Positions 5,149 through 36,349 of a stretch of 36,349 bases of DNA are shown here, piece by piece. The DNA comes from Desulfobulbaceae bacterium (GTDB lineage: Bacteria > Desulfobacterota > Desulfobulbia > Desulfobulbales > Desulfocapsaceae): positions 1 to 36,349 of the forward strand of contig QZLB01000164.1 of the NCBI GenBank assembly GCA_004796425.1, read 5' to 3'. Within the stretch, counting starts at the first letter, position 1. Every line of letters starts with the position of its first letter. Position numbers and translations under genes: made by a program. Below the pieces are notes generated by a model. It ran no database searches. It was not told the origin of the DNA and saw only the letters and a list, made by a program, of their open reading frames with translations.

Positions 5149-5165
5149 CTAGTTGGCTCCCTTCA

Positions 5166-6872
5166 CTATGGATTCATGGTATATTCATCCTGCAGCGGTA
5201 AAATCACTTCACGCCACAGATCATTAAACGTTTCTTGCTGCTGAGCTGGCTTCTGTATCATGGCTTTGTACCGTGCTTCCTGGTCCTCAGAAAGTTCATA
5301 TGACAAAACCATATTCAAACTGGCCCGGGAGAAGTCTGTCACCAGGCAGGAGAAGATTGCCTCAACCAACGTGGGCTGTTGCCCCTCCAACTGAGCTGCC
5401 TCGAGTATAAGCTGCGCATAAACCACCAGGGTGAACAATTCTCCGGCCGCCAACATGTAATCAACATTTTTTACCTGTTCCTGGTCAGGAGGTGTCGCAA
5501 CAAGCATTTCCCGTAACAGGTCAACCTGCTTCTTGAACAATGTTACATTTTCACTGGTGAAGTGTTGATATGCTCGTTCATAATCGGGAAATCGAATGGT
5601 GGCAAGGCCACCGGTTTTCTGCTGGAACAGGTAGGTTTCATCACTTGGTTCAGACCGCCGTCCGATTTCGGGATAGTCTACCGGTGAAAAGAAATAATTT
5701 TTCACAAATTTAATGATCAGGGCCATATTCACATGCTCGGTGCCCTCAAGTTTTGGCAGCATACCGATGTCCCTGATCGCCATCTCGAAATAGGTATCCT
5801 GTTCATATCCTTTGGCGGCAATAATTTCATGAAGCATGTCGATCACCTGCTCACCCTGTCCGGTAACCTTCATTTTCACAACCGGGTTAAACAGGAGGTA
5901 CCGTCGATCATCATCGGAAGCGACTTGCAGGTAATCTACAGTTCTCCAGGCAAACATTTTCATCGCAGCCAAACGAACATATGATTCGACGAACAGTCTT
6001 CTGACATGCGGAAAATCAGTGACCGAACGGCCATAGAGTCTTCGTGCGCTGGCATGGTTCAACGCTTCATAAAAAGCATGAGTGCAGATGCCAACCGAGG
6101 CACAACCCAACTCAAATTTGCCGATATTGATTGTATTGAGTGATGAGTTCCAGGCGTGCTCACCAGTTGATATAATATCCTCATCCTTGACGGGGTAATC
6201 GTTCAACCGGTATTCCGCAACGTAAGCCTGTCTCACTCCTGAAGTATCGATTTTCTTCACACAATCGTACTGCGGTTGATCTGGTTCAGCGGTAAAAAAT
6301 ACATATTCACCAGAATCCTTATACTTACCGAAGGTCGAGACAAGGACCGCACAATTCCCATTGCCGATATAATATTTTGAGCCATTGGCAAGATACCCAC
6401 CCGCCGGGTTCTTTTCCAAGGTCATCTCGCTTGAATAGAGATCAGCGCCATGGTTTTTTTCCGAAAGTCCGAAGGCAAAAACTCCACCCTGTTTGAGCAG
6501 TTGGGCGGTGCGATGTTTGAGTTCCTCATTCTGACCCATCCAGATTGGTCCCAGGCCAAGAATGGTGACCTGCCAGGCGTACCAGTAACAGAGTCCATAG
6601 AAACCCAATACCTCATTGTATTCACAGATTCTGCGCATATCCCAGCGATAATTATGATCATTCCCACCATAGGATGCCGGGGTAAGAAGCGTCGCAAAAA
6701 CCTGCCCCTCTTTGATAAAATCAAGAAAATCCTCATACCAGACCATTGACTGGTCATCCTGCTTGATTCTCGACAACCCTTTATTCTCAAAGAATTCGAT
6801 GGTTTTTTCCACCAGGGAACGAAACACGGGATCCGTGCATGTAGTTTGGTAATTTTTGGGATTTAATAACAT
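5166..6872 (-). CDS. Acyl-CoA dehydrogenase-family protein (divergent type)
   Basis: 568 residues with acyl-CoA dehydrogenase fold features: the flavin/substrate loop GLSEKNHGADLYSSEM (about 135-150), the middle beta domain, and a C-terminal helical domain with LEGTEHVN, where Glu376 is in the position of the catalytic base. It is longer than the classic ~380-residue enzymes and clearly different from the FadE paralogue at 8.5-10.3 kb: it lacks the usual EPGSGSD motif. It would oxidise an acyl-CoA to the enoyl-CoA using FAD; chain length and substrate cannot be read from the sequence. The start is supported by AGGAG 8 nt upstream of ATG. It lies in an operon between a thioesterase-like gene and the FeS protein, so it may pass electrons to that FeS protein as well as to Etf. 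Confidence 0.85.
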   Translation of the reverse strand: MLLNPKNYQTTCTDPVFRSLVEKTIEFFENKGLSRIKQDDQSMVWYEDFLDFIKEGQVFATLLTPASYGGNDHNYRWDMRRICEYNEVLGFYGLCYWYAWQVTILGLGPIWMGQNEELKHRTAQLLKQGGVFAFGLSEKNHGADLYSSEMTLEKNPAGGYLANGSKYYIGNGNCAVLVSTFGKYKDSGEYVFFTAEPDQPQYDCVKKIDTSGVRQAYVAEYRLNDYPVKDEDIISTGEHAWNSSLNTINIGKFELGCASVGICTHAFYEALNHASARRLYGRSVTDFPHVRRLFVESYVRLAAMKMFAWRTVDYLQVASDDDRRYLLFNPVVKMKVTGQGEQVIDMLHEIIAAKGYEQDTYFEMAIRDIGMLPKLEGTEHVNMALIIKFVKNYFFSPVDYPEIGRRSEPSDETYLFQQKTGGLATIRFPDYERAYQHFTSENVTLFKKQVDLLREMLVATPPDQEQVKNVDYMLAAGELFTLVVYAQLILEAAQLEGQQPTLVEAIFSCLVTDFSRASLNMVLSYELSEDQEARYKAMIQKPAQQQETFNDLWREVILPLQDEYTMNP

Positions 6873-8526: not shown

Positions 8527-10308
8527 TTAGCCAAACAGGTATTTTTCTTCTTCGCACGCAACTTCAGCGAGCAGACGTTTTGCCGCCAGCAGGCCGGTTG
8601 CATCATACTTTGCAAAGCGTCGGCAACCAGAGAGGATCATGGTCAAGGTATCACCCTCTTCTACATAGAAGGCACCTTTGCGTGCAGCAGTACCAATTGC
8701 TTCGGTGGCGGTAAAGGTGAATACTTTCACTGCTGCTTTGAGCAGTTCCTGTTTCTTTTCGCTCACCTTCGCAAAACACTTCTCAGCACGAAGCACGGCA
8801 CTTTCAATGGCGAAAATCTGGATTGCAATATCAGCGGCTGCCATCAGGATTTCCTGCTCTTCGGCAATCTTGTCCATAAATTTCTGAACACCAGTACCTG
8901 CAAGAATCAGAAAGAGGGTCTTGATGTTTTTAATAAGCGCTTTCTCGGCAGCAAAGAGCACCGAATCATCAATTTCCTCAAAGCTCGGTGTCATGAGTGA
9001 TTCAAACGCTTTCATTGCTTCGGCCTGAAGCGGTAGTTCACCCTTCATGGCCTTTCGTAAAATCATACCGGGAATCAGCAGCCGGTTAATTTCGTTGGTG
9101 CCTTCAAAAATCCTGTTGATGCGCTCATCGCGATAATAGCGCTCGGCTGGATACTCGCTGCAAAACCCGTAGCCGCCGTGAATCTGGACCACCTCATCAA
9201 CGGTCTGGGCCAGAACCTCTGAACAGAACACCTTGGAAATTCCGCATTCGGGGGCAAACTCTTCAATACCCTTCTGGTATTCTTCGTAGTAATTGTCAAT
9301 CCCCTTATCGATGGTGGCCAGTTTGTCATCGAGCAATCCGGCCAGACGATATACCAGAGATTCAGACGCATAAATTGCTGCGGTAAGATCTGCAACCTTT
9401 TCCTTTATTGCGCCGAATTTGCTGATCTGGGTATTAAACTGTTTTCTTTCGTTGGCATATTTGATGCCTTCCACCAGCGCCATCTTCGAGGCTCCGGTGA
9501 CGCCTGCCCCAAGCTTGAAGCGACCGACGTTGAGTACGTTAAAGGCAATCTTATGGCCTTTGCCAATTTCACCCAGCAGGTTTTCCACCGGTACCTTACA
9601 ATTATCCAGAATAATCTGGGTGGTCGAAGAACCTTTGATTCCCATCTTCTTCTCTTCAGCACCGACAACCAACCCTTCAAAACTTTTCTCTACCAGAAAA
9701 GCAGTGAAATGCTCTTTGTCAATCTTGGCAAAAACCGTAAAAAGTTCAGCAAATCCACCATTGGTAATATACTGCTTGGTACCGTTGAGGATGTAGTGCT
9801 TGCCATCTTCTGAGAGCACGGCACTGGCCTGGGCACCAAGGGCGTCACTTCCAGAGCCTGGTTCGGTCAGACAATAGGCGGCACACCATTCACCGGAGAT
9901 GATCTTCTCCAGATATTTTTCTTTCTGCTCATGGGTTCCATAGTAAATAAGCGGCAAGGTACCGATGCCGGTATGAGCGGCATAGGCGACAGAAAAAGAA
10001 CCACCCTGAGATACCTTTTCGGCAACCAGCATACTTGAGGCTTTGTCCAATTCAAGCCCGCCATATTCCTCGGGCGCATCCATCATCAGCAACCCCAGCT
10101 CACCACATTTCTGCATTCCCGCAACGACCAGATCAAAATTCTGTTTATCGATCTCTTCGATATGAGGGACAATTTCATTTTCGACAAACTGTTCGGTGGT
10201 CTCTGCGAATTGACGCTGCTCATCACTGAAATCTTCAGGAGTAAACACATCCTCACAGGCCACATCGGCAATCAGATATTCACCACCTTTAAAAATTTTC
10301 TCTGCCAT
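8527..10308 (-). CDS. fadE: Long-chain acyl-CoA dehydrogenase, FadE of the fadNAE type
   Basis: 593 residues, close to the 594 of B. subtilis FadE and carrying the long C-terminal extension of very-long-chain enzymes. Both acyl-CoA dehydrogenase signatures are present: CLTEPGSGSDALGAQ (146-160) and QIHGGYGFCSEYPAERYYRD (375-394). FEGTNEINR has Glu402 in the place of the catalytic base. It is an FAD enzyme forming 2-enoyl-CoA and giving electrons to Etf. The start has AAGGTG upstream of ATG. It is the last gene of fadD-fadN-fadA-fadE, 28 bp after fadA, and is followed at once by a strong hairpin. Chain-length preference is inferred from similarity only. Confidence 0.93.
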   Translation of the reverse strand: MAEKIFKGGEYLIADVACEDVFTPEDFSDEQRQFAETTEQFVENEIVPHIEEIDKQNFDLVVAGMQKCGELGLLMMDAPEEYGGLELDKASSMLVAEKVSQGGSFSVAYAAHTGIGTLPLIYYGTHEQKEKYLEKIISGEWCAAYCLTEPGSGSDALGAQASAVLSEDGKHYILNGTKQYITNGGFAELFTVFAKIDKEHFTAFLVEKSFEGLVVGAEEKKMGIKGSSTTQIILDNCKVPVENLLGEIGKGHKIAFNVLNVGRFKLGAGVTGASKMALVEGIKYANERKQFNTQISKFGAIKEKVADLTAAIYASESLVYRLAGLLDDKLATIDKGIDNYYEEYQKGIEEFAPECGISKVFCSEVLAQTVDEVVQIHGGYGFCSEYPAERYYRDERINRIFEGTNEINRLLIPGMILRKAMKGELPLQAEAMKAFESLMTPSFEEIDDSVLFAAEKALIKNIKTLFLILAGTGVQKFMDKIAEEQEILMAAADIAIQIFAIESAVLRAEKCFAKVSEKKQELLKAAVKVFTFTATEAIGTAARKGAFYVEEGDTLTMILSGCRRFAKYDATGLLAAKRLLAEVACEEEKYLFG

Positions 10309-18517: not shown

Positions 18518-19015
18518 TCATTGACAAAGCGCAGGAGTGGCGAGACAAATCTCCCGGTATTTTTCCCCTGCTTCCCGGTGTCCAGCATCAGCCGATTGCT
18601 TAAGGAATTCAGCGGATTCCCTGGGATTCTGTTCTGCCAATGCCAAGCCAAGAAAGTATGCAGCATCCATGTGGTTTGCCTCTGCAGCATAGCGGAGCCA
18701 ATACAACGTTTTATCTCGATTTCCCATGTTGAGATAAAGCATCCCCAAGTCAAACGGTGCATCGTGATGCCCGCCTCGGGCCGCCTGCTCAAGCCAGAAG
18801 ACGGATCTACGCCAATCCTTCTCCACCTCGAGAAATCCACGGAAGTAGAGGTGGCCGAGGGTATATTGGGCCTCAATGATACCGCGATGCGCATCCTGGA
18901 TTAATCGCTGAGAACCACCATCTGCCGCCTTCAAATCGGCTGGAGTGCTGAAACAGAAGAGGCCACCGAATAATGCGACGATAATTGCAATATATATTCG
19001 GGAAATTTTAGTCAT
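18518..19015 (-). CDS. Exported Sel1-repeat protein
   Basis: 165 residues. Residues 1-31 form a signal peptide ending near LKA-ADGG. Then come three to four Sel1-like (TPR-type) helical repeats with the hallmark A-x-LG spacing: AQYTLGHLYFRG, APFDLGMLYLNMG, AAYFLGLALAEQ and the last AGHREAGEKYREI. Sel1 repeats usually form protein-protein scaffolds, here in the periplasm. The gene starts only 3 nt after the creC stop and so belongs to the exosortase operon. It may sense or scaffold the VIT/VWA substrate or the CreC sensor domain; that is a guess from position. Confidence 0.85.
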   Translation of the reverse strand: MTKISRIYIAIIVALFGGLFCFSTPADLKAADGGSQRLIQDAHRGIIEAQYTLGHLYFRGFLEVEKDWRRSVFWLEQAARGGHHDAPFDLGMLYLNMGNRDKTLYWLRYAAEANHMDAAYFLGLALAEQNPRESAEFLKQSADAGHREAGEKYREICLATPALCQ

Positions 19016-19018
19016 TGC

Positions 19019-20461
19019 TCAGGGGCTCAAGGGTGGTTCGAGGGCCAGGATGAGGAGCGCCCTCACTCCCCGAGGAGTGCGGTTCTGAAGGGTAATAGTG
19101 CCACCATGCAGGTGAGCAACTTCACGAACAAAATTAAGCCCCAAACCGGTGCTTTTCTTACCACTGTCAGGACGCTGAAGAGAAAAGAATTTCTCGAAGA
19201 TCCGCTGGGTGGCGTACGGTTCTATACCAACTCCCTGATCCACGATTTCGATCATCAGATGAGAACCTTCCTGTCTGCATTGAATCGAGATGGCGCCACC
19301 CTCCTCACTGAAATCAATACTATTCTGTAACAGGTTGACCAAGGCCCGGTGAAGCAGAAATGAATCACCGGTCAACGTTACATCCTCCAAGGCAACCGAC
19401 ACCGAAACGGACTTGCGGGTCATCACCGATTCAAGTCCCTCGACCACGGTATTGACTAACCCTTTGAGTGATACCGGTTCCATCTTCACCAGCTTCTGTC
19501 TGTTTTCAAGGGCTGCCAGTTCAAGCATCCGGTCTATGATATCCTGGATCCGCAGTGACTCATTCTTAATATTGTTTAGAAATCGTTTACGCTGGTTCTC
19601 CTCCATCGGCTCATCGAGCAATTCGGCAGCACCCCTGATCGCAGACAGCGGGCTTTTAATTTCATGGGTGAGATTCTGGATATATTCCTCCACATATTTT
19701 TTCCCTTCCAGCGCCTCCTGCATCTCCTTGAATGCCGTTCCCATCTGAGAAATCTCACTTTTGCCAAGCTCGGGAAAGGGTGGTCTTGAACCATCGGTCA
19801 TACCAATTGCGTAATCCGTTAAGCGCTTGATGGGCCGGGTAATCCAATAGGAAACAAGATAACTGAACAGACTTGCCACCAGCAGGGCAATCAGGGCGAC
19901 GGCAACAACCTGAACCTTGGCGTTCTCAACAAACCAGGTAATGTTTGTGGTCGGTTTTCCAACACTGAGCACCCCGACAATTTCACCGTCAACTTTTATG
20001 GGGGCTGCAACGAACAGAACCGATGAGTTTTCGTCATCGGGAACATTTCTGGTTGTTCTTGCCCCATATTTGCCACTGAGTGTCAGATGTACATCGCGCC
20101 ATTGTGCATAATCCTTGCCGACGTTTTCTGGAAAACGCGAATCAAAGGTTACGACACCGTTGCGATCGGTCATGTATATTCGGGTATCAACCGACTTTTT
20201 GAGCAGTTGGTAAATCTGTGCAGAAACTGACCGCTGATACACTTCTGCAAAGGTGTCATACCAGAGCGTTTCATCAAAGCTGCCGTTGCTCATCTCGATG
20301 CCAACCGCTGCAGCCAGTATATTGGCCTGATCCACCAGCGGATCCTCTACCCCTTCAAGATAGCGTGTCCGCATGTTATCCAGAATCCAGTCGAATGGAT
20401 AGTAAAGACAGACGATACTGATGGTCAGATAACAAAAGAAAATCCTGGTCGATACTTTCAT
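19019..20461 (-). CDS. creC: CreC-like sensor histidine kinase
   Basis: 480 residues (E. coli CreC: 474). A membrane segment at about 7-28 is followed by a periplasmic sensor domain containing YMTDRNGVVTFDSR and SGKYGARTTRNVPDD, very close to the same stretches of E. coli CreC. A second segment (about 185-207), HAMP, then the H-box LTHEIKSPLSAIRGAAELL (His266) and the ATPase boxes (NLLQNSIDFSEEGG, DQGVGIEPYA, KKSTGLGLNF) follow. It would phosphorylate the CreB-like regulator, whose stop codon overlaps its ATG (ATGA). Similarity over the periplasmic part, not just the kinase core, supports the name. The signal is unknown; here it is likely linked to the cell surface, given the operon. Confidence 0.9.
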   Translation of the reverse strand: MKVSTRIFFCYLTISIVCLYYPFDWILDNMRTRYLEGVEDPLVDQANILAAAVGIEMSNGSFDETLWYDTFAEVYQRSVSAQIYQLLKKSVDTRIYMTDRNGVVTFDSRFPENVGKDYAQWRDVHLTLSGKYGARTTRNVPDDENSSVLFVAAPIKVDGEIVGVLSVGKPTTNITWFVENAKVQVVAVALIALLVASLFSYLVSYWITRPIKRLTDYAIGMTDGSRPPFPELGKSEISQMGTAFKEMQEALEGKKYVEEYIQNLTHEIKSPLSAIRGAAELLDEPMEENQRKRFLNNIKNESLRIQDIIDRMLELAALENRQKLVKMEPVSLKGLVNTVVEGLESVMTRKSVSVSVALEDVTLTGDSFLLHRALVNLLQNSIDFSEEGGAISIQCRQEGSHLMIEIVDQGVGIEPYATQRIFEKFFSLQRPDSGKKSTGLGLNFVREVAHLHGGTITLQNRTPRGVRALLILALEPPLSP

Positions 20462-21138
20462 GCAGTGATCTCCAGTGAATACCCGACACCTCGATGAGTA
20501 ACAATCGGATCATGGTCCGCTCTGATCTGCTTAAGCTTCGCTCTGATATTTTTTATATGGGTATCAACAGTCCGGTCCATACTCGCATCGGGCTCATCCC
20601 AGGCCCGATCCATTAACTGGTCACGACTGAATACGCGACCCGGCTGTTCTATAAAAACTGCGAGAATATTATACTCATACTTGGATAGCTCAAGCACCGT
20701 TGCACAGTATTTGATCACCCGCTTGTCACGATCCAGTTGAAACGAACCGTTTTCAGACGCGTGAACACTGGTCTGCCCCACCCGTCGCAATACCGCCTTG
20801 ACCCGGGCAGAGAGCTCGCGCGGACTAAACGGCTTCACCACATAATCATCGGCACCGATCTCAAGGCCAACCACCCGATCAATTTCATCGGATCGGGCAG
20901 TGAGAAAGATGATGGGAACGGTCGACCAGGTTCTGATTTGCTTGCATAATTCAATACCGCTGATATCGGGCAATCCAATATCAAGCACAATCAATTCAAC
21001 GGGCTGCTCCTCAAGGATCGTGTTGACCGGCAGACCGGCATGACTGCAGACCACGCGGTAACCATCGGTTTCAAGCGCATACTGAATAGTCTCCGCAATG
21101 GCGGGTTCATCCTCTACTACCAGAATTACACTGCCCAT
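20458..21138 (-). CDS. creB: CreB-like response regulator (OmpR/PhoB family)
   Basis: 226 residues (E. coli CreB: 229). Receiver domain with VLDIGLPDISGIELCKQI (Asp53), FLTARSDEIDRVVGLEIGAD and KPFSPREL, then a winged-helix DNA-binding domain ending in MDRTVDTHIKNIRAKL and THRGVGYSLEI. These stretches match E. coli CreB closely. GAGGAA lies before the ATG; the gene overlaps the exosortase end by 32 nt and creC by 4 nt. Four TTCAC/TTCAT half-sites with 11-bp spacing upstream of the operon match the known CreB box, so I infer autoregulation. Confidence 0.92.
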   Translation of the reverse strand: MGSVILVVEDEPAIAETIQYALETDGYRVVCSHAGLPVNTILEEQPVELIVLDIGLPDISGIELCKQIRTWSTVPIIFLTARSDEIDRVVGLEIGADDYVVKPFSPRELSARVKAVLRRVGQTSVHASENGSFQLDRDKRVIKYCATVLELSKYEYNILAVFIEQPGRVFSRDQLMDRAWDEPDASMDRTVDTHIKNIRAKLKQIRADHDPIVTHRGVGYSLEITA

Positions 21139-21892
21139 ATATTCCTCGCTCTTCAGGTGATCTTCCCTGTTTTACTTTCTGGTATAGCCAAAACAGCGCA
21201 GTCAGTGATAGGGTAAGCGTGGAACTCACCAGTATCACCACCTGCGCATGTGCCCAGAATTTTATTGAAAGACTCGTATTCACAGAGTTTACAAGCGGCA
21301 GTACCAGCGCGTATCCCAGATACCAGAGCAGCGGTACCAGCAGATAGAGCAATGAGCTACCGCGATTGCTTTTTCTCCCATTGAGCACACATGAAACCGA
21401 TATATAATAAATTATCAGTGCATTATAGTAAATAACCACGCCACTCAACCGGTGTGCTGTTTCAGGGTTTATGATAGCACCGAGCACTTCCTGTTCGAAT
21501 GGACTGATGGAGAGCATGATGCGCAGCCCATTTACCAGGATGGTGAACCCGTATGCAGCAACAAGTAACAAGAAGATACTGCTCAGACGCGCCTTCCTCC
21601 CGGAAGTCCATAACAGCTGATAGGAGCCCAGACAAAAGATCAGGATGAGGAAATTCACACCCGCACAGGCGGGGGCAATGGCGATGGATTCTGCCAGATT
21701 TACCCAGCCCAGGCCCCGTTCAAATTCGAAATGCAGCCCGGTAAGCAGTGAAACCAGTATCGCCAATGGTCTGAGTATCCAGACCAACTGTTCACTGGTT
21801 CCATTGCTATAATGATATTTCAGGAGCAGCGCAGTAACCAAAACCGCAACAGATAAAAACCAACGATTATGCTGAAATGCGACCATTCTCAT
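21107..21892 (-). CDS. Exosortase (dedicated type)
   Basis: 261 residues with about seven or eight membrane segments. The three exosortase catalytic residues are in place: Cys76 in IAPACAGVNF, Arg124 in NGLRIM, and His147 in TAHRLSGVVIYY. Exosortases are inner-membrane proteases/transpeptidases that process proteins with PEP-CTERM tails. I chose the ATG at 21892, which overlaps the stop of the upstream VIT/VWA gene (ATGA) and has AGGGG upstream; a GTG 15 nt earlier is less likely. The adjacent gene encodes a protein ending in exactly such a tail, so this is probably a one-substrate system. It may belong to the exosortase K variant, but I cannot confirm that by profile. Confidence 0.85.
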   Translation of the reverse strand: MRMVAFQHNRWFLSVAVLVTALLLKYHYSNGTSEQLVWILRPLAILVSLLTGLHFEFERGLGWVNLAESIAIAPACAGVNFLILIFCLGSYQLLWTSGRKARLSSIFLLLVAAYGFTILVNGLRIMLSISPFEQEVLGAIINPETAHRLSGVVIYYNALIIYYISVSCVLNGRKSNRGSSLLYLLVPLLWYLGYALVLPLVNSVNTSLSIKFWAHAQVVILVSSTLTLSLTALFWLYQKVKQGRSPEERGIYGQCNSGSRG

Positions 21893-23907
21893 TTGCGCCC
21901 CTGCCACTGAGCTTTCTTTTTCCGTTCATCCTTTCGCTGCAGCCAGCCGATCAACAACAGGGCCGTACCCAACAGCACAAGCGTTATCAGACCGGGTTCC
22001 GGAACTTTGTTCATGCCGCCCCCGACTGCCAAATTAGACACTCCTTTCGGCAGCGTCAGTGGCTGCTTTACATCCTGGCTCTGGCCACTCGGGTTTCTGA
22101 TAATTTCGTCTACTGCCACAAAAGAGGTGAACTTCGTTAACAGGTTGTAGGATAGACCCAGCTCAACAATCTTCTCCCGGTTCTCATTGGTAGCGTCCCG
22201 GCTCTGAAAATCGGATAATCGGGAGATTCTTGCCCGGGCCCACAGGTATTCCAACCCTTCTGAAGCTTCACGCTCCACTGCTCCCTGCCAATCAATCTCC
22301 TGTCGAAAAAAACCCTCACCGTTGGTTCCGGTCAACACGACAGTTCCATCCTCCGCTTCCCGCCATTTACCGAACACTATCACCGGTCGCGAACCAAACA
22401 GATCTGGAATTGCAAGGGGTTCAACGTCATAAGCCTGAATATTCTCAAACCCAACTTCTATATCTGTAAGCACCGGATTTTGGATATATTCACGAAATCT
22501 CTGCGCGACCGGTAGTGCCTCTTCAGGTTTGGTCACCACAAAGGTATCGCCCTGACCGGATTTGGCTAACCCCTCAATCAGATAACGATTAACACTAGAG
22601 CCAATACCAAAAGCAAATACATTGGTTTTGTGCAAGTTCTGCGACACCGCTTCAAATACTTCACGCTCGGCACTGACATAACCATCAGTAACAATAACTA
22701 AACTTCGCGACACGCCCTCCTTTCTCGGCAATTTCAACGCCCGTTTCATTGCGCTTAAGAGCTCTGTCCCCCCTCCACCTTCGCTGTCGGAGATGAACCT
22801 GGCCGCCTGTTGAAGATGTGCTGGCGTCGCAGGGACCGATTGCGGTGCGTACATTTTCGAATCTCCTGCAAAAAGCATCACATTAAAACTGTCCGTTGGA
22901 TCTAGATTGACAATCAGGTTTTCCAGGAGTTTTTTTGCCGTATCAAGGGGAAAACCGTGCATCGAACCAGATACATCAACTACAAAAATGTATTCTCGAG
23001 CCGGAATGATGCTAGATTCCACCCGATCAGGAGGCTGAGCCATCAGCAGGAAGTAGTTTTCTTTCTGACCACGTTGCACAATCAACCCTGAATTAATCTC
23101 TTTTCCGGCAAGTTGATAATTAAGAATAAAATCCCGATCACCAGAGAACTGCACAGGGTTGGCGAGGCGGATTTGAGCCACACTTGGTGCTTCAAAATCC
23201 ACCTCGGTATCATGGGTTTTACAACCAACCGCTGCCAAGTCTATACCGGTGTTAAGCCGTACCGAGATATTAAACTCCGTTCTTGGCTTGCTGCCTGCTT
23301 TAAGATAGGGGTTTTTACTCCAGGACTGGCCAGGTATTGCAGCCTTTAACTCAGCACCACTGACATACCGCGGACCGACTACCGTTGGGTAGACAAATTC
23401 ATAAACAGTATCCTGCGGCACCAGGAGTTCGGTATATTTCAGTTCTATTATGATGGTATCGCCCGGCATCACATTGGCGACCTCCATCTGAAAAACATTG
23501 GGACGTTTCTGCTCCAGAAGCGAGGCGTTCTTACCTTGCTGTTTTGCGGTATTGAATATCTGCTTTGCCTCCTCTTTCTCTTTGATCTTGGCGTGAGTAA
23601 CCCGATCTCCGATGGTCATGGTCATACCATGGACCGCAGCACTGGTTGAACCGGGGAAAATATAGCGACCGCTGATCGGCTGCCCCCCCATGTTAGCATA
23701 CTCCTGTCGCACCTCAACATGGGCGATAACCCCTGAAATGTTGACCGTTACCTCGGTCGATTTCAGGGGAAACTGATCCAGATTCGAGTCACCCTCTTCC
23801 ACAAAAAAATAGGGCGAAAGATGATCTATTGTTTCCTCACTGCAGTAGCCATAGCCGCTCATTATGATCATGAGTGATAGTGTCATCACTGCCAATTGCT
23901 TCCTCAT
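21889..23907 (-). CDS. Secreted VIT/VWA-domain protein with PEP-CTERM sorting tail
   Basis: 672 residues. Signal peptide at the N-terminus (hydrophobic to about residue 22). VIT domain at about 40-165 (EVTVNISGVIAHVEVRQEY, PGDTIIIELKY). VWA domain at about 300-470 with the metal-binding MIDAS motif VVDVSGSM and later VIVTDGYVS. The C-terminus has VPEP at 635-638, a hydrophobic segment and a basic tail (RKDERKKK), the three parts of a PEP-CTERM signal. Architecture resembles the 'marine proteobacterial sortase target' proteins, but with an exosortase tail instead of LPxTG. ATG at 23907 has GGAGG 5 nt upstream. It is the first gene of the operon and the presumed substrate of the exosortase. VIT/VWA proteins often mediate adhesion or matrix binding; the ligand is unknown. 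Confidence 0.9.
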   Translation of the reverse strand: MRKQLAVMTLSLMIIMSGYGYCSEETIDHLSPYFFVEEGDSNLDQFPLKSTEVTVNISGVIAHVEVRQEYANMGGQPISGRYIFPGSTSAAVHGMTMTIGDRVTHAKIKEKEEAKQIFNTAKQQGKNASLLEQKRPNVFQMEVANVMPGDTIIIELKYTELLVPQDTVYEFVYPTVVGPRYVSGAELKAAIPGQSWSKNPYLKAGSKPRTEFNISVRLNTGIDLAAVGCKTHDTEVDFEAPSVAQIRLANPVQFSGDRDFILNYQLAGKEINSGLIVQRGQKENYFLLMAQPPDRVESSIIPAREYIFVVDVSGSMHGFPLDTAKKLLENLIVNLDPTDSFNVMLFAGDSKMYAPQSVPATPAHLQQAARFISDSEGGGGTELLSAMKRALKLPRKEGVSRSLVIVTDGYVSAEREVFEAVSQNLHKTNVFAFGIGSSVNRYLIEGLAKSGQGDTFVVTKPEEALPVAQRFREYIQNPVLTDIEVGFENIQAYDVEPLAIPDLFGSRPVIVFGKWREAEDGTVVLTGTNGEGFFRQEIDWQGAVEREASEGLEYLWARARISRLSDFQSRDATNENREKIVELGLSYNLLTKFTSFVAVDEIIRNPSGQSQDVKQPLTLPKGVSNLAVGGGMNKVPEPGLITLVLLGTALLLIGWLQRKDERKKKAQWQGRK

Positions 23908-23953
23908 TGCCACCTCCTGGATTTATGTTTTATGAGTCAATAACTGGTTCCAG

Positions 23954-24005
23954 ACTATCCTTCACAGATGAACGGGGAGTGAACCATATATGAAAAATCA
24001 GTGAA
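23954..24005 (-). promoter_or_regulatory. Four-half-site CreB box array and -10 of the exosortase operon
   Basis: On the minus strand the pattern is TTCAC-N6-TTCAT-N6-TTCAC-N6-TTCAT, at 24001-24005, 23990-23994, 23979-23983 and 23968-23972, all in the same direction and exactly 11 bp apart. The E. coli CreB tag is TTCAC-N6-TTCAC. A GATAGT hexamer (23954-23959) lies 8 bp after the last half-site, as a -10 does after a Pho box that replaces the -35. Transcription would begin about 40 nt before the VIT/VWA ATG. Spacing and repetition make chance unlikely. Confidence 0.75.
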
Positions 24006-35406: not shown

Positions 35407-36349
35407 TCAACTCCGCAAATGATTCTGTACCGCTTCAATCAGCACACCATAGGTGATCGGTTTGTGAATCACCTGCTGAACCCCTTTTGCCAGCACGGCC
35501 TTTGTATCAAGGATATCGCTATGTCCCGTACAGATGATTATCGGTATCTCCTGATCCAGCTCACGCATCTGCATGGCAAGTTCTTCACCGGTCATACCCG
35601 GCATGGTTTGATCGGTGATCACAAGCGCATAGTGAGAGGGTGCGTTCCTGAACAGTTCCAACGCCTCGTCAGGTTTGAGTGTGGTAACGACCTGGTAACT
35701 GTTCTTTTCCAACTGTCTTTTCATGACTTTACAGATAGACTGTTCGTCATCAACAACCAGGATCTGCCCTTTTCCGCCTATGGACTGAAACTGGTCATGG
35801 TGCTCAACCGCCTCTTCACTGTTATCGGGAGGTGCTCCCGTATCATCGGCCACCGGTAGATTTACCGTGAACGTGCTGCCCATACCAATACTTGAGTTCA
35901 CCCCAATTTCACCACTATACCGCTCAACAATGCCATGAACTGCCGCCAACCCCAGACCGGTACCGGAGCCAAGCTCTTTCGTCGTGAAATACGGGTCAAA
36001 GATGTACTTCAGTATCTCGGGTTCTATACCTGTTCCGGTATCACTAATCGCTAAACAGACATATTCTCCCGGCTTCAGGGTATTGAACTGTTCCTGGTTA
36101 TCATTGCTCACCCGTATGGAGTTCAACCGAATGGTGATCCTTCCTTTCTGCTGGTCCAAGGCGTGTAATGCGTTGGTGGTGAGGTTGAGTACGATTTGAT
36201 GGAGACCAGTGGAATCTGCAAAAACAGGTTTGCATGAAGATGAGATATCATCGACAATTTCTACCGTTTGCGGGATCGTTGCGCGAAGCATACTGACACT
36301 ATCCCGAACGATCTGCACGATATCAACCGGCTCAAGTGTTCGTTCATCC
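35407..36349 (-). CDS. Hybrid histidine kinase, 5' end outside the window
   Basis: At least 313 residues; the frame stays open to the right edge (DERTLEPVDI...), so the ATG and the HisKA domain lie beyond it. Visible are the ATPase domain (LHQIVLNLTTNALHALDQQ, SDTGTGIEPE, GSGTGLGLAAVHGIV) and a C-terminal receiver (VVDDEQSICKVM, TDQTMPGMTGEELA with the phospho-Asp, KPITYGVLIE). The layout resembles the C-terminal half of the 30.3-33.4 kb kinase. Signal and output are unknown. Confidence 0.9.
   Translation of the reverse strand, partial: DERTLEPVDIVQIVRDSVSMLRATIPQTVEIVDDISSSCKPVFADSTGLHQIVLNLTTNALHALDQQKGRITIRLNSIRVSNDNQEQFNTLKPGEYVCLAISDTGTGIEPEILKYIFDPYFTTKELGSGTGLGLAAVHGIVERYSGEIGVNSSIGMGSTFTVNLPVADDTGAPPDNSEEAVEHHDQFQSIGGKGQILVVDDEQSICKVMKRQLEKNSYQVVTTLKPDEALELFRNAPSHYALVITDQTMPGMTGEELAMQMRELDQEIPIIICTGHSDILDTKAVLAKGVQQVIHKPITYGVLIEAVQNHLRS

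Follow-up and report, generated by a model that had tools for sequence, protein, structure and literature searches.

Four phased TTCAY half-sites upstream of an exosortase K operon in a Desulfobulbaceae bacterium: a probable operator of the co-encoded response regulator CreB

To our knowledge, work on the two-component system CreBC, whose regulator CreB is a stress regulator in E. coli, has been confined to a few Gammaproteobacteria. In E. coli the cre tag is carried by creD, the hallmark target of CreB. The published cre/blr tag, TTCACN6TTCAC, is located upstream of creD (PMC4689548). With the CreBC systems of E. coli, Aeromonas (BlrAB), Pseudomonas and Stenotrophomonas, the locus described here shares the word TTCA(C)-N6-TTCA(C), the 11 bp period, and a regulator and a kinase scoring above curated cut-offs. 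It differs from them in the number of half-sites (four, as opposed to two in the E. coli cre tag), in the fifth base of the half-site (C or T, as opposed to C in the published tag), in its target, a VIT–exosortase operon containing creBC itself, and in its hosts, which are mostly Desulfobacterota and also Nitrospirota and Acidobacteriota. The E. coli pstS Pho box likewise consists of 11 bp direct repeats in place of a −35 hexamer, but its half-site is TGTCAY and its regulator belongs to a different subfamily. The proteobacterial dedicated sortase system (TIGR03785/3787/3788) has the same VIT/VWA target family with a two-component pair nearby; it contains a class-C-like sortase where an exosortase is found here, and a dedicated pair in place of CreBC, except in one genus discussed below. 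In the literature searched, which covered papers available without subscription, nothing relevant to XrtK or to a link between exosortases and CreBC was found. This kind of regulator and operator is known; judged by that literature, what appears to be new is the target operon, the use of four sites and the range of phyla.

The stretch of DNA analysed (36 349 nt, hereafter the window) was re-read on the minus strand from 24005 to 23968 as TTCAC-N6-TTCAT-N6-TTCAC-N6-TTCAT, with a period of exactly 11 bp. The four phased half-sites of the first-pass annotation were recovered exactly, with all coordinates correct. The cre tag is thus present as TTCAY, in four copies, upstream of five genes that run in one direction almost without gaps. 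The features are collated below; the half-sites were assigned from the sequence itself and from column conservation in 37 promoters, and the ribosome-binding site from the sequence.

24001 to 24005, minus strand: half-site 1, TTCAC, with a TTT just before it that is conserved in the family
23990 to 23994, minus strand: half-site 2, TTCAT
23979 to 23983, minus strand: half-site 3, TTCAC, at the −35 position
23968 to 23972, minus strand: half-site 4, TTCAT, closest to the −10 element
23952 to 23957, minus strand: −10 element TAGTCT (conserved register of the 37-promoter alignment), overlapping GATAGT (23954 to 23959)
23905 to 23918, minus strand: ribosome-binding site AGGAGGTG, then the ATG (23907) with which the first gene starts
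21889 to 23907, minus strand: VIT/VWA surface protein with a C-terminal sorting signal (VPEP, hydrophobic stretch, basic tail), the predicted target of XrtK
21107 to 21907, minus strand: exosortase K (XrtK; TIGR04287, 105 bits, cut-off 55), start codon approximate
20458 to 21138, minus strand: response regulator CreB (NF008296, 323 bits, cut-off 273)
19019 to 20461, minus strand: sensor kinase CreC (NF008312, 573 bits, cut-off 356)
18518 to 19015, minus strand: Sel1-repeat protein, the last gene of the run

The operon contains an exosortase above its cut-off adjoining a PEP-CTERM-like target. The VIT protein is likely to be the substrate of XrtK, since its tail carries VPEP, a hydrophobic stretch and basic residues, as do the tails of most relatives (PEP within the last 50 residues in 47 of 57 VIT proteins). 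Measured against the dedicated sortase system, the VIT protein gave 451 bits as against 552 bits and the regulators scored as CreBC, which places the operon outside that system. No match to the Sel1-repeat protein was obtained among the family-level loci searched. The divergent aldehyde dehydrogenase gene (from 24113 on) was considered as a target of the array and rejected: it does not lie beside the operon in relatives, and the array points to the VIT gene. A second exosortase/archaeosortase-like protein of this genome (L002; G000:C307, 1357–1629) scored below the XrtK cut-off.

The rarity of the array was determined by pattern-based searches, as was the possible regulon. In the window, TTCAYN6TTCAY was found seven times (0.44 expected), a count reached in none of 100 shuffles. 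At least three exact TTCAY in 11 bp register were found at only three loci in the whole 4.4 Mb genome, two of them with four sites: the operon array, contig C89 at 9590–9627, and the window at 5162–5188. A reversed control pattern, searched for as arrays of at least three sites over the same 4.4 Mb, gave no match. The three phased TTCAY at 5162–5188, where an acyl-CoA dehydrogenase-like gene ends and no gene follows in their orientation, were judged probably coincidental, as was a TTCAY pair at 19349 inside the creC reading frame; a further pair lies at 35897.

An XrtK alignment was used to scan genomes of bacteria and archaea for related operons. This gave 55 loci with organism names, and the set was enlarged by genomes from the order and phylum of the present bacterium. 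The gene order VIT–XrtK–CreB–CreC was found in most loci, largely from Desulfobacterota and also from Nitrospirota and Acidobacteriota. Promoters that were truncated, masked or mis-started were left out, an exclusion made after viewing them, and 35 CreB-linked XrtK operons with a readable promoter were retained. At least three of four TTCAY phased at 11 bp were present in 30 of the 35, and all four in exact register in 17; at spacings of 7–10 or 12–16 bp, no locus among the 35 had at least three of four, and dinucleotide shuffles of these promoters gave a mean of 0.005 loci with an array. Among the five remaining promoters, L101 has a complete array of four sites at a greater distance upstream, three (L098, L135 and L141) have degenerate arrays, and L140, a CreB operon with a readable promoter, has none. 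Outside the 35, the array was present in L118 and L145 once a wrong start call had been fixed. The search of related genomes proposed in the first-pass annotation thus returned the array in 30 of 35 operons, with three more loci once start calls were corrected or the reading was extended upstream; the loss in operon-keeping relatives that it had named as a counter-indication was mostly not seen, the array being absent in L140 and degenerate in L098, L135 and L141. Since this array precedes the operon in dozens of distantly related bacteria, it is very probably a real and ancient control switch. In Desulfofustis PB-SRB1, a second VIT–XrtK–CreB copy (L034/L145, G012:C16) has broken frames and an intact array; it lies in the genome of L116 and could be a duplicate that has decayed or was poorly sequenced.

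For the anatomy of the promoter, 37 promoters were aligned on the last half-site (position 0). The TTCA cores at −33, −22, −11 and 0 were invariant or nearly so (near 2 bits), two extra T preceded the first two half-sites, and the spacers mostly carried less than 0.5 bit. A TATAAT-like hexamer followed at +15 to +20, 10 bp after the last half-site; its second base (+16) was A in 36 of 37 promoters, and T occupied +15 and +20. From these fixed core and −10 positions, the array covers about −60 to −23 relative to the predicted start of transcription and replaces the −35 hexamer, which is absent. GATAGT, noted in the first reading of the sequence as lying 8 bp beyond the array, was indeed found at 23959–23954, eight bases after half-site 4 on the minus strand; as the −10 element, however, it did not hold, the conserved register being TAGTCT, 2 bp downstream.

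The repeats are very improbably a chance or low-complexity match, or DNA that has simply not diverged. Promoters rich in TTCAT and TTTT are AT-biased, which speaks for such an origin, but dinucleotide shuffles and other spacings give essentially no arrays, the spacers of the 37 promoters are almost without information while the cores are invariant, and the loci with arrays are drawn from several phyla. The layout is that of a Pho box, with 11 bp direct repeats replacing the −35 hexamer at a fixed distance from the −10 element. The earlier suggestion of a Pho-box manner of action agrees in geometry with the span of about −60 to −23, the missing −35 hexamer and the offset of E. coli pstS, in which GTCAC is followed by TATTTT at +15 to +20 (read from the sequence). 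At E. coli creD, the distance between the tag and the putative −10 element is longer than here by about one repeat, a minor difference.

The regulator of the operon was compared with its relatives. Both CreB and CreC exceed the curated equivalog cut-offs. In a tree, a branch with 98/98 support separated all 44 CreB proteins, including that of E. coli, from PhoB, BaeR, ArcA and the dedicated-sortase regulators; the position of the E. coli protein is uncertain in detail, its branch being long. The recognition helix reads DRTVDTHIKNIRAKL here and DRTVDTHIKTLRAKL in E. coli CreB, nearly identical, and the wing retains THRG.GYSL. The similarity to E. coli CreB asserted in the first-pass annotation is thereby upheld (323 bits against a cut-off of 273, the 98/98 branch, the near match of the helix). 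So is the conservation of the site between E. coli and a distant phylum, the word TTCA(C) and the 11 bp period being kept and the operon arrays occurring in several phyla.

Array and regulator also occur together. In the eight XrtK genomes without CreB above the cut-off (L131, L132, L133, L139, L142, L144, L146 and L147), no array was found. In G007, G637 (Azoarcus) and G647, whose CreB gene lies outside the operon, the array still stands before the VIT gene. Two assemblies that are incomplete or ungraded, G646 and G546 (identical to G648), contain a whole or partial array, and no CreB was found in them.

Another regulator of the OmpR/PhoB family, for example PhoB, might bind the array, with CreB an incidental neighbour. 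The genome has many OmpR-family regulators (69 matches), and the Pho-box design also consists of 11 bp direct repeats with this −10 offset; even so, we consider this unlikely, because the word of the array is the published cre tag TTCAY and not TGTCAY (PMC4689548), its presence follows CreB above cut-off across the XrtK genomes, the recognition helix is of CreB type, and the word differs (GTCAY/ATCAY) where the neighbouring regulator differs. Our preferred reading, with a probability of about 0.86, is that the operon's own CreB uses the array as its operator.

The differing word was found at three XrtK loci (L094, L100 and L103), from three related species of one Desulfofustis-like genus, in which the operon carries a divergent two-component pair of the dedicated-sortase type; two regulators of that genus gave 307 and 295 bits to TIGR03787, just below the cut-off of 336. 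The array at these loci is GTCAT-N6-ATCAT-N6-GTCAY, with the −10 element at an unchanged offset. A change of operator word with the regulator pair is only suggested by these loci, since they are close kin. No NTCAY three-site array was found at 20 canonical dedicated-sortase loci in Pseudomonadota, so that the GTCAY operator rests on the three related species.

We infer the following course of events for an operon controlled by CreB. An envelope or growth signal would lead CreC to phosphorylate CreB. Two CreB dimers, arranged head to tail along one face of the helix, would occupy the four direct repeats from about −60 to −23. CreB would then recruit sigma-70 RNA polymerase in place of a −35 hexamer, as PhoB does at the Pho box, and the operon would be switched on, creBC included, giving positive feedback. 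The products would include a secreted VIT/VWA protein and an exosortase that cuts its PEP-CTERM-like tail and so anchors the protein at the cell surface or releases it. CreB might instead bind the array and repress the operon, or act without phosphorylation. The sign of its action can differ, since the creD transcript of S. maltophilia rises when creBC is inactivated (PMC4689548); the array, however, lies upstream of the −10 element in fixed phase and replaces the −35 hexamer, the layout of an activator-dependent promoter, and repression or phosphorylation-independent action is, by our estimate, unlikely. Activation by CreB is the reading kept here.

Should it be correct, a conserved operator before the exosortase operon in several phyla would tie CreBC to the anchoring of cell-surface proteins, and the array promoters would form a defined family for probing what CreC senses. 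CreB with TTCAY and the dedicated-sortase regulator with GTCAY would represent a natural experiment in regulator–operator co-evolution. More broadly, and at somewhat less than even odds, CreBC may be an old multi-phylum envelope regulon that, beyond Gammaproteobacteria, serves mainly to control a dedicated exosortase and its VIT/VWA surface protein, together with creD and a membrane-anchored, NagZ-like GH3 protein. The module would be interchangeable, replacement of CreBC by a dedicated-sortase pair rewriting the operator word and leaving the promoter geometry fixed, and CreB might drive a small RNA in the present genome.

Further arrays were found by pattern search in 47 genomes, and the CreB-type array proved wider than first claimed, since creD and other genes in these genomes also have it. 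It stands before creD in three genomes (G546, G661 and G667), as the cre tag does in E. coli; in some others creD has no array, and in the present genome no creD was found. Membrane-anchored GH3 (NagZ-like) genes follow an array in G646, G653 and G667, and a two-site version in Azoarcus. Those with three- or four-site arrays are as follows.

L102, 11217 to 12713: membrane-anchored GH3 (NagZ-like) gene
L122, 4378 to 5808: membrane-anchored GH3 (NagZ-like) gene
L198, 1125 to 2843: membrane-anchored GH3 (NagZ-like) gene

These arrays suggest a link of the Cre regulon to peptidoglycan. Many of the remaining three-site matches look like background, because 12 relatives without XrtK also have a three-site TTCAY site and the −10 element is less often at its usual offset; some array promoters outside the operon have no −10 element at the exact offset.

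The second four-site TTCAY array of the genome (L036; G000:C89, 9590–9757, plus strand) also has a −10 element at the offset seen in the operon, and no gene lies behind it. The array is followed by a structured stretch of 113 nt, with a folding energy of −42.6 kcal/mol (z −4.4) and a terminator-like hairpin. This stretch is a candidate for a small RNA driven by CreB; it gave no Rfam match, and a DNA search of 79 family genomes returned no relative.

An alpha-2-macroglobulin-like gene was observed behind a four-site array in G340 (L195, 1594–5001). Two near-identical four-site TTCAC arrays occur in G668 (L194, 2785–2822 and 5186–5223), where they precede an outer-membrane efflux gene and a gene for an OmpR-family regulator.
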